NCBI RefSeq assembly: GCF_029542785.1
Contig: NC_083376.1
Span: forward strand, 62,001 to 126,000
Source: Malassezia japonica
Lineage: Eukaryota; Basidiomycota; Malasseziomycetes; Malasseziales; Malasseziaceae
DNA length: 64,000 nt
Direction: 5' to 3'
Position 1 is the first letter of the stretch. Each line of letters starts with the position of its first letter. Positions 8,709 to 64,000 of this stretch are shown in pieces. Position numbers and translations under genes: made by a program. The notes below the pieces were generated by a model that saw nothing but the letters and a program-made list of their open reading frames with translations, did not search any database and had not been told where the DNA came from.

Positions 8709-9320
8709 ATGCCTCTGTCGGCGGACGAGTACGCGGCACTGTCGCCGGAGGAGCAGCGCGCGCATGACCATGCTGCGGCGCAGCGCGAGAAGGAAGAACA
8801 ATCCGCTCTTCCGTACCGTTGGACGCAGTCGCTGGACCATGTCGAGGTGAATATTCCGGTGCCGAGCGGCACGAGGAGCAAGCAGGTGCAGGTCGATCTG
8901 CGGCGTGCCGGCCTGAAGGTCGCCGTGCAAGGCACTACAGTGGTCGAGGTGCGTTCTATTTCTTATGCAGGGTGAGCTGTCGAAGCCGATCAAGCTGGAC
9001 GATAGCACGTGGACGATCGGTAGGTCGTTGTGCTCACCCAGACGATGGCGTGCTGAGCATCCACCTCGAGAAGGAGAAAGCGAACGAGTGGTGGGCGCAT
9101 GTCGTGACGCACCACCCCCCCATTGACACGTCCAAGATCGCGCCGGAGGACTCGAAGCTGAGCGACCTCGACGGCGAGTCTCGGTAAGTGTTTGTACTGA
9201 CGCCAGGGCTATGGTGGAACGCATGATGGTACGTACGAGCGCTAACGCAGTATGAAAATCGCCAAAAGGTACGCTTCTGTCCTAACGCAGCAAATGGGCC
9301 GCCCCACATCGGACGCGTAG
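8709..9320 (+). CDS. nudC: Nuclear distribution protein NudC (CS domain)
   Basis: NudC is a CS/p23-fold co-chaperone that stabilises LIS1/dynein components. Exons are 8709-8948, 8971-9019, 9042-9183, 9207-9228, 9251-9268 and 9291-9320 (166 aa). The five introns are 22, 22, 23, 22 and 22 nt, and exons 4 and 5 are only 22 and 18 nt. The spliced product runs YRWTQSLDHVEVNIPVP, DDSTWTIDDGVLSIHLEK, NEWWAHVVTHHPPIDTSKI and LSDLDGESRAMVERMMYENRQ, ending MGRPTSDA. This is the canonical NudC order and terminus, which confirms both micro-exons. The N-terminal helix is short, as in other fungal NudC proteins. It is convergent with RPS14 across 267 bp in which I see no gene. Confidence 0.95.
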
Positions 9321-15113: not shown

Positions 15114-17082
15114 CTACTGCCGCCGCCCAGAGATGGTATGCATCACCTTGGCGTGCCGCAGGAGCGTTTCGCGAGAAGCAAGGATCGGAACGGGCGCCTT
15201 GGTGTGTGCCACCATGGTCGTCGCGTAGGGTATCGGGGCCGCAGCGCGGTGCGGCGGGGCGTCACCGACAGCCTCGGCAGACGAACCGTTAGCAGACGCA
15301 GAGGCGACCGGACCAAGCTGCGCAAGGCGGGGGTCGATCGCGTACGGCGACGGGAGCGTCGCCGAGCGCGGCTCGGTAGAGCGTACGCTGGGCGACGCGG
15401 GGGCGTCCGTAGTAAACGCACGCGGGCGCGGCAGGCTGTCGAGCGGCAGCGCGGGTGCGGGCAACAGCGGCGCGTCCTTCTCGCGCAGCAGCGGCTTGGC
15501 TTCTTTTTCCGGCGGCGTCGGCGGCCGCTCCTCCTCGGGGGCCGCACGCGGCGTCACGTCGGCGCCCGGCGCGGCCGGCGGGGGAGCGTCGCCTTGCACG
15601 GGCGGTGCGTTGCTCTCTAGTAAACTCTCGGGCTCTTGGGTGCTCTGCGTCGACCCCACCGACACGTCCTGGGTCTGCAGCGAGGACTGTGGCGAGGAGG
15701 ACAGCATCGCGCTCGTCGGCGACATTGCTGAACTGCGCGCGGGCGGTGTATTGGCCGCACGCACAGGCAGCGGCGCGGTGCGCGACGACGGGCTCTTTTG
15801 CACCGTCTCGATGCAGCTCGTCGCAGACGCCGAGCGCTTGCCCAGCGGCGGGCGCGTCGGCGCAGTGGGGGGTGCAAGGTGGTCGCGGCGCTTTACCGGC
15901 GAGCGCGACGGGATGCGGGCACGCGGAGCGCTCGACGGTCCAGCGTCGGGCGCGGTCATTTGCTCGTTCGCATCCGAATGGGAGTTGGCACGCTTGCGGC
16001 CTTCGCGGCGCGCATCGGCGATCGGCTTCGGCTTAGTGCGTGCCGAGGGCTTGCGCTCCTTGGCAACGGGCGGCGTCGCGTCCTTGTCGTGTGGGAGCGA
16101 GTTCTTCTTCTCTTCGCGGCGCCCCCACTTGGCTTTGGACCGCTGCGTAGGCGTGCGGCCGAGCATCGCGCCACCGCCCATGTGTGCCTCCATCTCGCCG
16201 AGGTCCTCGTCCGAGTCGGATGGCACGAGGTAGTACTCTTCTGCGAGCGGGCGCTCCGACGGCTTGGCGAGCTCTTCCGGGCGCATGTCTTCCGGGGGTG
16301 GCGCAGAGAGCGCCAGGACAAAGTGGTCCTGGTGCGTGATGAGGAACTCGACGACGCGCACCGCAAACTGGTGCTCCTCCTTGGAGCGTACCGTGGGGTG
16401 GCTTAGCATGCCGGGTTGGAAAATGATGGCGAGGTTCCCTGCGCTCATCCGATTCACGTCCGACATCCGCTCAAACACGGCGAGCAGGTCAAGGATGTAG
16501 AGAAGGAGGTATTGCGTCGCGGGCGGGCACGACGTGATGAGGCTGCGGTACGCGCCGATGGCCGCCTCGACGTTGACGTCTGGCTTGGCAAGCACTTCGC
16601 GGAACTCGGCAAAGCGGTCAAACGGAATGATGGGTTCCGGCATGAGGTTCAGGAACCGGCGCAGGAGACTCGCGGCGTCGTGCACATTGTAACCCGTCCA
16701 GTCAATGTCCTTGCCGTACTGCGGCGGTGTGTCAAACTGCTGTCGCAACTCCTTCATACGTTTTTCGGAGCCGTTGATACGGAACACGCCTTCGACTTCC
16801 GTTGCTGCGTTAAAAAAGGCACGTACCATTCTGCTTCAAGAAGAGGCCAATCTTGGCGACAATGACCGGCACATAACCCCAAACATACTGCTTCCCGTCC
16901 TGGTTGACCAGGGAGATGGCGACGCTCGAGTGCTTGAGCGCCTCGTGCAGCGGCGCGCCAAACATGGACACGTCGTCAGCAGAACGCGGCTCGCGCGGTG
17001 CGGCGGCGCGTCCAAACGACGACCACCACGACCGCAGCCCGGTGAGGGTGGATATCGCATCATCGGATCGTGGCACGGCCAT
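15114..17082 (-). CDS. RhoGAP protein, Sac7-like
   Basis: A GTPase-activating protein for Rho GTPases, probably Rho1 (cell wall and actin signalling), by resemblance to Sac7. Exons are 17082-16827 and 16804-15114 (648 aa); the intron is 22 nt and lies inside the GAP domain. The domain covers about residues 50-260: FGAPLHEALKHSS, then across the splice FLKQN-ATEVEGVFRINGSEKR with the arginine finger, DWTGYNVHDAASLLRRFL, and AGNLAIIFQPGML. The remaining 380 residues are disordered and Pro/Ser-rich with no clear domain. The ATG at 17082 is the only plausible start. Its upstream region of over 400 bp is unusually long for this window. Confidence 0.9.
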
Positions 17083-59643: not shown

Positions 59644-59759
59644 GTTTTCTGGGGAAGACCAAAGTGGCGTGAAATCAGCCAGCCAATACACACTTGCATT
59701 CGTGGCAAATTCCAGTGCTAGCAATTAGCACTTTTCCCATCTTGTTGTTGGCCACCACT

Positions 59760-60836
59760 ATGTCGACGACCTTTTCTCGCGCGGACGTGGCTAAGCACAA
59801 CAAGCAGACCGACTGCTGGGTTACCTGCAATGGTAAGGTGTACAACGTGACGGAGTTCATCGAGGACCACCCTGGTGGTGATGACCTTATCCTCGAATAT
59901 GCCGGCAAGGATGTCACCGAGATCATGGCGGACCCCCTGTCGCACGAGCACTCCAAGAGCGCCTACGGCATGCTCGAGGACTTCCGCGTTGGCACGCTCC
60001 TTGCTTCGGAGGCAGCCATCGCCACGGCCAACAAGGCCCCCCTCGGCGACGTTGTCATCACCGACGACTTTGAGCCCGTGGAGACGGACATGTCGGAAGA
60101 CTTTAAGGAGCACCATTTCCTCGACCTTGAGAAGCCCCTGATCCCCCAGATGTGGCGCGCGCGCTTCACCAAGGAGTTTTACCTCGAGCAGGTGCACATT
60201 CCCCGTCACAAGAAGGACTCGGCGCAGCTGATGCCCCACAACTTCCTCGAGGTGTTTACCAAGACGCCCTGGTACGTTATTCCCATGCTCTGGGGCCCGA
60301 TTGCTGCGGCCTTCTTCCACGTCTCGGCGATGCAGTTCAAGGAGATCTTTGCCTCGTCCGAGCACCCCATGGCGTTTGGCTATGCCGGCGCGATGGCCTC
60401 GTGGGCGTTTGGTGTGTTCTTCTGGACGTTCATTGAGTACCTCTTCCACCGCTTCATCTTCCACATGGACTCGATGCTGCCGCGCAACCAGACCGCCTAC
60501 CTAATGCACTTCCTTCTGCACGGCATCCACCACTTCCTGCCGATGGACAAGATGCGCCTGGTCATGCCGCCGATTCTCTTTGCAGCGCTCTCGTTCCCGA
60601 TGCTGCTGCTTGCGCACGCCGTTCTGCCCACGGCCATGGCGAACGGCACCATTGCGGGGTCGTACACGATGTACATCTTCTACGACACCTTCCACTACGC
60701 CATGCACCATACCAAGCTTCCTTCGATCCTCAAGGCGCAGAAGAAGTACCACCTCGAACACCACTACAAGAACTTTGAGCTCGGCTTTGGCGTTACGAGC
60801 ATGTTCTGGGACATCATCTTCCGGACGCTCTTGTAA
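59760..60836 (+). CDS. SCS7: Sphingolipid fatty-acid 2-hydroxylase (SCS7/FAH1)
   Basis: An ER di-iron enzyme that 2-hydroxylates the fatty acid of ceramides. Single exon, 358 aa. An N-terminal cytochrome b5 domain (residues about 5-80) has the heme motif EDHPGGDDLI. The hydroxylase domain has the histidine motifs EYLFHRFIFH, HFLLHGIHHFLP, YAMHH and KKYHLEHHYKNFELGFG, with four membrane segments. Its length matches yeast Scs7. With LAG1 it provides two steps of inositol-phosphorylceramide precursor synthesis within 6 kb; whether this is a cluster is not shown. Confidence 0.96.
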   Translation: MSTTFSRADVAKHNKQTDCWVTCNGKVYNVTEFIEDHPGGDDLILEYAGKDVTEIMADPLSHEHSKSAYGMLEDFRVGTLLASEAAIATANKAPLGDVVITDDFEPVETDMSEDFKEHHFLDLEKPLIPQMWRARFTKEFYLEQVHIPRHKKDSAQLMPHNFLEVFTKTPWYVIPMLWGPIAAAFFHVSAMQFKEIFASSEHPMAFGYAGAMASWAFGVFFWTFIEYLFHRFIFHMDSMLPRNQTAYLMHFLLHGIHHFLPMDKMRLVMPPILFAALSFPMLLLAHAVLPTAMANGTIAGSYTMYIFYDTFHYAMHHTKLPSILKAQKKYHLEHHYKNFELGFGVTSMFWDIIFRTLL

Positions 60837-60896: not shown

Positions 60897-63800
60897 CTAT
60901 GAAAGTTGGGCCATCCACGCGCGCGCATTACTCGTGAGCATCGCAGGATTGTGCGACACGCTCTGCACGCCTACACGAAGCGGCTGGCGCGCAGTGAGTG
61001 TCGCGAGCGACACGGGGTCCAACGCCGAGAGCGTCGAGAGGAGCGTGTCGACGTGCTCCGACGGCACACGCACCACCGCCTCGGCAACGTGCGCGCCGGC
61101 GCCGAGTGGGGGGCCGACGTAGAGCACGTCCACTGCGAACGCAGAGCCGACAACGCCGTGCATCGTCTGCAGCGCCTGCGCAATACCTTGCTGCACGGAT
61201 AGCTCCGACGGGGGCTGGGCCTGTGTTTTTTGTCCGATGGATGCGCTGCGTTAGGGGGGTTACATACAAGCTCAGCACGACATAGCGCCATGCAAACTCC
61301 TTTTCATTGTGCCGGAAGGCGTGGGGCGACGTATCTTGAGCGCGGCTGCGCTTGGCGGGCGGCACAGGCTCGGGCGCGGCGTCCGCTGGCGCCGTGCTCT
61401 CGGCGTCGCTATCGTCGTCTTCGTGCTCGGCGGCAAAGAGCGCCTCGAGTGCCGGGAGCTGCTCTTTGCCGCGCCGGATCTGCGCCTGCGTAATGTGCAT
61501 CATATCAAACGCGACGCCGGTCGGCAGTACGCTCGTAATCGTGCCCATGCGCGCAAACTTGGGGTAGCGCTGGGAAAAGTGGGTCAGGAGCAGGTGCTTG
61601 GCCTGCATCTTTTTCGCGGCTTGGACGGCCTGGCCAATGGTGCTGTGCCCTTTGTCATGCGCAAGCTCCTCCTCGTCGTCTTGCATCGTCGCTTCGTGAA
61701 TGAGGATCGTAGCTTTTTTTCCGGCGGCGACCAACGCGTCGCACGGCATCGTATCGCCCGAAAAGACCAGCTTCCAGCCAGACTCGTGCTCGAGAATCAG
61801 GCCGTAGCAGTGGCTCGTGCGGTGTACGACTGGCGCGGTTCGGATCGCAGAGAGACGCAGGCGCGCTTTGGCCGCAGCGAGGATCGCGTGAGCCTCGGCG
61901 TTCTTGGCTGCTTTGGCGTCCGGCGCCTCAGGGTCCAGGCCGTGCTCAAAGTCGAGCAGCTCGTTGTCGAGCGCCAGCACTCCATTCGGACCGTCGCGAA
62001 GTCCAAGCTTTTCTAGATGGTCGTATTCGAGCAGATAAAAGCGCGTGTAGTTGTTTGAGAAAAAGTACAGCGGCTCATCGAGACCCAGCTTGCGCCGCTC
62101 GAGTAAGATACGCACGATGCCCATGTGGTGGTCGCCGTGGATATGGCTCACAAAGATCATGCGCAAATTCCGCAGCACATGCTCGATGCCAACGCCGGAC
62201 CAGCCGTGTTCGCCAGGGCCAAAGCGCCGTGCGAGCTGGAAGTAGGTGCTCTCGCCCGCATCCAGCAGGATATAGCCGACGTCGGGAATGTGCACGAGCG
62301 TGCTCAGCACGTTGCGGTACTTCGAAGGCGACGAGCTGCCTGTGCCGAGCGTCGTAAAGGTAAGCTCGTCGCCGGGTAGAGTCTCTTGTGCCATAGGCGC
62401 GCGATGCGCCTGCTGTACAGCAGCCTCGTACGCCGCCCACGCCTCGGCTGCCTGTTCGGTCGCATGCGTCGAGAGTCGCTGCGTCATTTCGGAAAGCGGC
62501 ACGTCAAACGGCGGCGCAGTTGCTGGCAGTTGCATCGGTGGCGCACGGGGCTGGAGTGGGACAACCATGCCCTCGGTGGCCGGCACGCCGCGTCCACGGA
62601 TCGGCTCGCTCGGCACAAGCTGGTATCCCGGCACGGAAAACATGTCTGCGTCGAGGCGCGAAAGACGCAGCAGAGACCATGCGCTCGACGGGTACATGAG
62701 CCGGTCTGCACACTGCTCCTTGTTTGCAATGATGTGGTTGCAATCCGGCCCAAACGAGGCCATCCACTTTGCGTAACGCTCGTCTTCAATAACCGAGCGC
62801 GGCGCAGCGTGTACGATTGCATGCGGCGTCGTACGCTGCTCGGGTGCCTTGTCCATGTTGGCAGCCTGGGTATACGGCGCAAAAGATGCCTGCACATCGG
62901 GTTCTAACAGCGCATCGATGTACGCGGGGTTCGGAAGAACCATGTAGAAAAAGACGGCGCCGGCACGCGCCGTGCCGACCACGTCGCTGCTGCGCAGCGT
63001 AACATCTTCCAGGATATAGTCCGGCACATCGGGGGCCGGCTGCTTCTTTTGCGCGCGCTTGGATGAGCGCGAGCGGAGCCACTGGGCCTGCTCGGCGTCG
63101 CTGAGCGACGCCCAGTCGACCGGGCGCTGAATCTGCACGTCCTCGCCGCGCGTGAGGCGCGCAAAGTCCGGCCCTGGCGAGATGCCGAGCGCCGCAGCGC
63201 GCTTTGCGTCAAACTTGCCGCGCTGAGTCGTACCTGCGCAGATGTAGGCGAAGACCGGTGCTTGGCGTCCTAACTCGGCGCCGCCGTGAGGACAGTCGTT
63301 AGGGCAAATGCGCGCCGGCGGAAGCGCGTGGGGTACCCGCGAAGGTGTCTTGATGCGCATGTCCTCCTCCTTTTCAGAGGAAGTTCCCCATGCATCGGCG
63401 ATCGTGATCCTGTACCACTTATCAGCCTGGTCGGCGCACAGATTGGATGGCTTCCACTGCGGGTTGCGCCATGGCTTATCCTGTTCATTGAAGATTGGGC
63501 CTCCTGCGCTCCGCCATGGCACGCACTCGAATGGCGCGATCGGCACGGCATACACGCGAACATGCTCGTCGGCGAAGCACGGCGTCGTGGAGGGCTTGAA
63601 GCCGATGTCCTCCACGTTCACCTGCATCGAGTCGCGCTTTGCGTAGAAGCGCGTGCATGCGACCGCGTACCTCGTGTTGATAGGCCCGTAAAGATTGATC
63701 GACTTTTTGCCGCCATCCGCGAGCGTCATGAGCAGGCCAGGAAGGCCGCCGATGGCTTCCGACGCGACGCGCGAGAGGAAAATGTGGTCTACGCGTGTGT

Positions 63801-63948
63801 TGGTCGATTTGTGCTGGGCCGAGAGGCGCGTCGTTCCCTCGCCTGCATTGAACATGTATTTCTTCGAGTCGCACTGCAGCACGACCGTCGGCAGTTCCGA
63901 GGTGTCTGAGGCCGGCGCGGCGAGAATACGAAAGTTGGAGGAGCCCAT
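60897..63948 (-). CDS. TRZ1: Long-form tRNase Z (TRZ1/ELAC2) fused to an Rpp14/Pop8-like domain
   Basis: Long tRNase Z removes the 3' trailer of pre-tRNAs. Exons are 63948-61268 and 61245-60897 (1009 aa; an upstream ATG at 63972 adds eight). The N-terminal half is the degenerate lactamase domain. The C-terminal half has the zinc site VSHIHGDHHMGIV (about residue 600), HRTSHCYGLILEHESGWK, VFSGDTMPCDALV and LLTHFSQRYPK. After an acidic linker (about 845-875) an extra domain begins FRHNEKEFAWRYVVLS and continues across a 22-nt intron into QQGIAQALQTMHGVVGSAFAVDVLYV, VAEAVVRVPSEHVDTL and VGVQSVSHNPAML. This pattern resembles Rpp14/Pop8, protein subunits of RNase P/MRP. No stop separates the parts. 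Confidence 0.85.
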
Positions 63949-64000
63949 GCTGGTCCGGCGCTCGGCGTGCATAAACCGTACACTCGAATACCCTGCGCTG

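Follow-up and report, generated by a model that had tools for sequence, protein, structure and literature searches.

Yeast Pop8 (PDB chain 6agb_H) and human Rpp14 (6ahr_H), subunits of the ribonuclease (RNase) P machinery, each exist as a small protein on its own, 124-133 residues long, and the PDB RNase Z chains matched in this work end about where the nuclease ends. Here, we describe a gene of Malassezia japonica in which both conditions differ: the chain of the transfer RNA (tRNA) 3'-end nuclease, tRNase Z, continues with a linker and a Pop8 domain, which thus forms the tail of the nuclease. The gene lies on the minus strand (63972..60897) of a stretch of 64,000 nucleotides (nt), positions 62,001 to 126,000 of contig NC_083376.1 (assembly GCF_029542785.1), hereafter referred to as the window, and reads as one protein once a 22-nt intron is removed.

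A partial parallel, which we offer as a functional analogy only, is found in the complexes of human mitochondrial RNase Z with precursor tRNA (pre-tRNA) (8cbl, 8rr1, 9ey1). There, no covalent bond connects the 5' and 3' steps and the 5' enzyme works without an RNA component, whereas the M. japonica gene predicts a covalent fusion to a subunit of an RNA-based enzyme. As a review states, efficient 3' processing of mitochondrial tRNAs depends on MRPP1/MRPP2, so that the 5' and 3' steps share proteins.

Members of this family have been catalogued before. The fungal tRNase Z survey of 2010 lists MglTrz1 of M. globosa (XP_001729151) with 1109 amino acids (PMC2942849), the same length as the Pop8-tailed homologue P0016 of our set, and the two are presumably the same protein. 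The accessible sections of that survey trace length differences to insertions, deletions, and extensions at either terminus, and mention neither a Pop8 domain nor a fusion; the word 'fusion' is absent from the survey and 'RNase P' occurs once. The initial annotation, made from the window alone, knew of no fusion of this kind, and we likewise found no description of one in the open-access literature, as far as its accessible text extends. The precomputed Pfam labels of the protein collection do include PF20976 (Pop8) in P0002, P0003, P0008, P0011, P0013, P0019, and P0021, so the architecture was already visible to anyone looking.

Domain identity

Pfam places three domains on the fused protein in the order proposed by the initial annotation, with the acidic linker before the last: PF13691 (Lactamase_B_4, tRNase Z) at residues 16-76, PF12706 (Lactamase_B_2) at residues 649-799, and PF20976 at residues 895-975. 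The first two identify, at the level of sequence, a long-form tRNase Z with an N-terminal tRNase Z domain and a catalytic metallo-beta-lactamase half. Against the PDB, the nuclease part matches human ELAC2 (E 1.6e-75) and yeast RNase Z (E 1.5e-48). P549/K551/R553/N554, H610/H612/D614/H615, H759-E760-A761, and H776-S777-T778 are invariant in a 30-protein alignment (A1), with T762 nearly so. The second of these sets we take to be the HxHxDH histidine motif. The names PxKxRN, HEAT, and HST for the others come from the fungal survey (PMC2942849). The enzyme is predicted to cleave the 3' trailers of pre-tRNAs.

For the tail, PF20976 scores 32.6 bits against a curated cut-off of 27.2, and 30.3 bits on exon 2 when the genome is searched in six frames. 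The profile PF01900 (Rpp14/Pop5) over the same stretch reaches 17.1 bits, below its cut-off of 23, which makes Pop8 the better name; the expectation of an Rpp14/Pop8-type domain holds for the Pop8 profile and falls short for PF01900. A profile built from 15 Pop8 tails and run against the PDB retrieved yeast Pop8 (6agb_H, E 9.1e-5, chain residues 7-122 of 133) and human Rpp14 (6ahr_H, E 2.5e-4), the five further matches listed being all at E 0.17 or worse. Four residues are invariant in the 15 tails (Y12, G47, D56, and R76 in domain numbering); by our reading of the printed alignments, human Rpp14 retains the full set, and yeast Pop8 the Y, G, and R. Since the PDB match list of a full-length model was filled by the tRNase Z part alone, the Pop8 domain of a relative was run with its own predicted model, for which the best Foldseek match was yeast Pop8, as expected for a Pop5/Pop8 fold. 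Profile and predicted fold thus support the identification of the C-terminal domain as Pop8.

Two other origins of the tail were discarded. A duplicate of Pop5 is excluded by the subthreshold PF01900 score together with a separate PF01900 gene elsewhere in the genome, while a chance similarity or an artefact of an open reading frame (ORF) is excluded by the curated cut-off passed, the PDB profile and fold matches, and the conservation across species.

Gene structure

The features of the locus are collected in Table 1. The two exons measure 2705 nt and 349 nt, and the frame is open from 63972 through the tRNase Z and linker and, as initially noted, across the domain junction, up to the intron. 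From its first methionine, at 63972, the spliced product has 1017 residues; the 1009-residue protein first described corresponds to a start at the second in-frame methionine, at 63948.

Table 1. Features of the tRNase Z-Pop8 gene in the window
Feature	Position	Strand	Content and basis
Exon 1	61268..63972	-	Predicted long-form tRNase Z, covering about residues 1-845, followed by the linker and the opening 7 residues of the Pop8 domain; 63948 is an alternative start
Linker	61291..61437	-	Residues 846-894; acidic, no Met; sequence
Basic cluster KRSR	61342..61353	-	Residues 874-877; resembles a nuclear localization signal
Intron, 22 nt	61246..61267	-	GTATGT...CTAAC.CAG, within the Pop8 domain; sequence pattern, relatives align across the splice
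Exon 2	60897..61245	-	Remaining Pop8 domain and stop codon; PF20976, family-profile matches, fold of a relative
Whole Pop8 domain	61290..60900 minus intron	-	Residues 895-1017

The proposed intron, GTATGTAACCCCCCTAACGCAG, is an intron-like 22-mer, and its size is usual in this DNA. The donor-branch-acceptor pattern has 20 matches of 22-32 nt on both strands of the window, 11 of which are exactly 22 nt long; ten Markov-simulated controls gave 0, 3, 1, 2, 1, 2, 2, 4, 1, and 1 matches. Introns of such form thus appear to be common here. Putative examples with GTACGT..CTGAC/CTAAC..CAG lie, for instance, at 9229, 44351, and 50950 on the plus strand and at 16826 and 14063 on the minus strand. The spliced domain aligns with its relatives straight through the exon junction, and the related ORF P0017 drops out of the alignment where the M. 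japonica intron lies, which is consistent with an intron at the equivalent place in that gene. The intron call of the initial annotation is thereby upheld, and we infer that the transcript is spliced at this site and translated as one protein.

Distribution among fungi

The homologue search, scored on the 8000 candidates with the most words in common with the query, listed 116 homologues. A tail profile, built from ten homologue tails, detected the Pop8 domain in 23 of them at E 1e-6 or better, a count that includes the ten seeds and the M. japonica protein (P0001), entered as its spliced product. Twenty of the 21 Malassezia-like proteins (P0001-P0021) carry the tail, the exception being P0017; beyond the nine named species, the label rests on similarity. 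All nine of these are positive (M. furfur, M. vespertilionis, M. psittaci, M. nana, M. caprae, M. equina, M. yamatoensis, M. cuniculi, and M. sp. CBS 17886), with a partial domain in M. psittaci, M. cuniculi, and CBS 17886. The remaining three are P0023 (Moesziomyces), P0027 (Melanopsichium), and P0030 (Thecaphora). Among the 30 proteins of alignment A1, Pfam itself detects Pop8 in 21 at E 0.1. The tail profile detected no domain in P0017, P0022, P0024-P0026, and P0029, where ORFs or models may be cut short, and gave no significant score in the 86 homologues outside P0001-P0030 (best E 0.55).

Further sequences came from two other searches. The Melanopsichium tail as query, scored on 182 candidates, matched itself and Sporisorium scitamineum P0129 (E 3.9e-40). 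The Pop8 alignment as query, in a search that needs shared 5-residue words and near-query lengths and has little power for distant standalone Pop8 proteins, returned 12 proteins among 3592 candidates. One, P0117, is exon 2 of the window itself; P0118-P0128, which might be taken for separate Pop8 genes, look like second exons of Ustilaginales genes and are better read as pieces of fused genes; P0122, for one, lies on a contig equal in length (11293) to that of P0025, a tRNase Z. A search for relative DNA in IMG/VR found none.

The named fusion-bearing Ustilaginomycetes belong to Ustilaginales and Urocystidales, and Malassezia is placed in another class; Exobasidiomycetes lay outside the named sampling. 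As the two classes share a subphylum, Ustilaginomycotina (PMC7426719), the fusion is probably old within it. The comparison suggested at the outset has thus shown the architecture to recur across Malassezia and in some Ustilaginomycetes.

One polypeptide or two

A conserved gene could still yield two proteins, with the Pop8 part made from its own transcript or from a start inside the gene. In M. japonica, the frame is open, and the spliced product has no methionine from residue 825 to the next one at residue 930, the ATGs of that stretch falling in other frames; the linker lacks an in-frame ATG from which a separate Pop8 could start. A start at Met 930 would drop 35 of the 123 residues of the domain. 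The Thecaphora protein is no more favorable, with 109 linker residues free of methionine, and P0005, P0006, P0009, P0012-P0014, P0016, P0018, P0020, and P0021 each hold both parts, their genes presumably being intronless at that site.

The sequences that speak for two products are the Ustilaginales-like ones, where the domain appears as a separate ORF (which we read as a second exon) and a methionine (MKP...RY) stands directly ahead of it in P0027, P0129, P0118, P0120-P0125, and P0127. That residue is leucine in P0023, P0119, P0126, and P0128, and the preceding Y-V/I/L-RKG is conserved in the sequences reaching that far, so the frame looks coding there. Some Malassezia-like linkers also hold scattered methionines, and a non-AUG start or a further upstream exon could in principle serve a separate Pop8. 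Taken together, we regard the production of two proteins as very unlikely.

The Pop8 complement of the genome

The genome (8.43 Mb, 9 contigs) was searched in six frames, exon by exon, so that an intron-split Pop8 could be missed. Within that scope, PF20976 matches only the fused locus, and exon 2 as query, up to E 10, matches only itself; the separate Pop8 gene that would have spoken for an unrelated tail did not turn up, and the fused tail is the only recognisable Pop8 found in the sequence. Of the partners searched (Pop3, Pop6, Pop7, and Rpr2 were not among them), Pop5, Pop1, Rpp1, and Pop4 have genes. The Pop5 assignment corresponds to the single PF01900 match, at C2:1109075, separate from the fused gene. 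RNase MRP RNA is found at C8:271117-271690 with 80.6 bits against a cut-off of 50.

These partners bear on the idea that the Pop8-like fold, recruited in cis, now serves tRNase Z as an additional RNA-binding module and has ceased to join RNase P/MRP. The fold itself would allow it, but the complex would then lack Pop8 in a genome that retains Pop5, Rpp1, Pop1, Pop4, and MRP RNA, and no such domain is detected in the homologues outside P0001-P0030. We therefore hold recruitment in cis to be improbable.

On the nuclease side, the long-form domain PF13691 is found at the fused locus only. The fused enzyme is not, however, the only tRNase Z in the genome, since C1 carries, at about 327-329 kb (L019, near 327,474), a short-form tRNase Z-like gene with multiple exons; one of its putative exon borders falls at the histidine motif. 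Lactamase_B_2 has five other matches in the genome, four of which resemble NAPE-PLD, SNM1/DCLRE1A, a CPSF73-type beta-CASP protein, and a PhnP-like protein, with NCBIfam scores below the curated cut-offs.

Proposed function

Because no other Pop8 was found, we propose that the fused domain fills the Pop8 place and brings tRNase Z with it. One gene would give one polypeptide composed of tRNase Z, a flexible linker of about 50 residues, and Pop8. The Pop8 domain would take its usual position beside Pop5 and the two copies of Rpp1 in both RNase P and RNase MRP, and the docked particles would thereby have a 3' nuclease tethered to them. In the RNase P particle, tRNase Z would be held next to the pre-tRNA while the leader is removed, and once the 5' cut is made the 3' cut would follow on that molecule. 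We consider it probable that a single polypeptide docks as Pop8 in RNase P/MRP, and a functional link between the nuclease and RNase P is likely; that the two cuts are actually coupled is close to an even chance, on its lower side. In favor of coupling, removal of the 5' leader by RNase P enhances RNase Z activity, as stated in a review.

The counterpart of the linker in M. caprae (P0008, residues 831-870) is disordered in the predicted model (predicted local distance difference test, pLDDT, about 32), and a disordered stretch of about 50 residues could bridge many tens of angstroms. Where aligned, the linker of relatives is 14-53% identical to that of the window (17-53% in the Malassezia-like ones), whereas the Pop8 part reaches 44-67% in those 19 Malassezia-like relatives that have the domain. 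The basic cluster KRSR we read as a putative nuclear import signal, from the look of the motif. The pattern K[KR]x[KR] occurs in 11 of 20 Malassezia-like linkers, where shuffled linkers give an expectation of 0.5, and in 4 of 220 background stretches of 50 amino acids; these proteins are related, and the counts are not independent cases. Five other Malassezia-like linkers carry RKRSC at the same position, while none of the four Ustilaginomycete linkers has the pattern.

The principal rival to coupling accepts that the fusion is real and that Pop8 is a true subunit of RNase P/MRP, and holds that the joining serves co-expression only or came about as a neutral merger, the genome being compact; cleavage within the linker may separate the two parts, or tRNase Z may ride along without coupling. 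The poorly conserved linker, disordered in the model of a relative, would suit such a merger, as would the presence of Pop8 in RNase MRP and the compact Malassezia genomes with their very short introns (PMC7426719). On the other hand, Malassezia and two orders of Ustilaginomycetes, the latter with longer linkers, have retained the fusion, and if it were useless one would expect some lineages to have lost it, a loss that may have happened in Violaceomyces. We see this merger without coupling as a substantial possibility, though short of even. It overlaps with docking as Pop8, and our estimates are not meant to add up to a whole.

Several points weigh against docking and coupling. RNase MRP also contains Pop8, and tRNase Z has no obvious use there. 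The fused enzyme need not be the sole route to tRNA 3' ends, given the short-form gene. In Violaceomyces (P0028), a tail of 174 residues has no Pop8 domain detectable with the tail profile, and the fusion may thus not be universal. A search with RF00009 gave no match to a nuclear RNase P RNA, with 15 of 206 candidates scored and a silent control, so that absence is not shown. Finally, a review states that yeast has no Rpp14 homologue but only a similar binding site (PMC8509007), which contrasts with our profile linking yeast Pop8 and human Rpp14; another source gives yeast Pop8 a human homologue (PMC7351766).

Flanking sequence

Upstream of the first methionine (63973-64000 and beyond), the frame stays open for 44 codons that are arginine-rich and contain neither acidic residues nor an in-frame ATG. 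This stretch resembles a mitochondrial signal, and the N-terminus of P0017 is similar in look but ATG-started. Dual targeting of the fused protein through a non-AUG start is possible. On the other side, a convergent gene (59694-60836, plus strand), presumably a cytochrome b5-containing fatty acid hydroxylase by its motifs, ends 60 bases from the stop of the fused gene.

Significance

To our knowledge, coupling of the 5' and 3' ends of nuclear tRNAs has been argued mostly from the order of the cuts. The observation of a fused gene, first made from the window, stands, and sequence supports both the fusion and the identity of its parts. That a 3' nuclease is naturally fused to an RNase P subunit, and that the fusion is conserved, provides genomic evidence for a link between the two steps, as well as a testable system, and suggests that the two tRNA cuts are physically coupled. 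If the docking is true, these fungi would have tRNase Z also on RNase MRP, which processes ribosomal RNA, and Malassezia and some smuts would have their Pop8 in the fused tail, where a search for a small separate gene would miss it.
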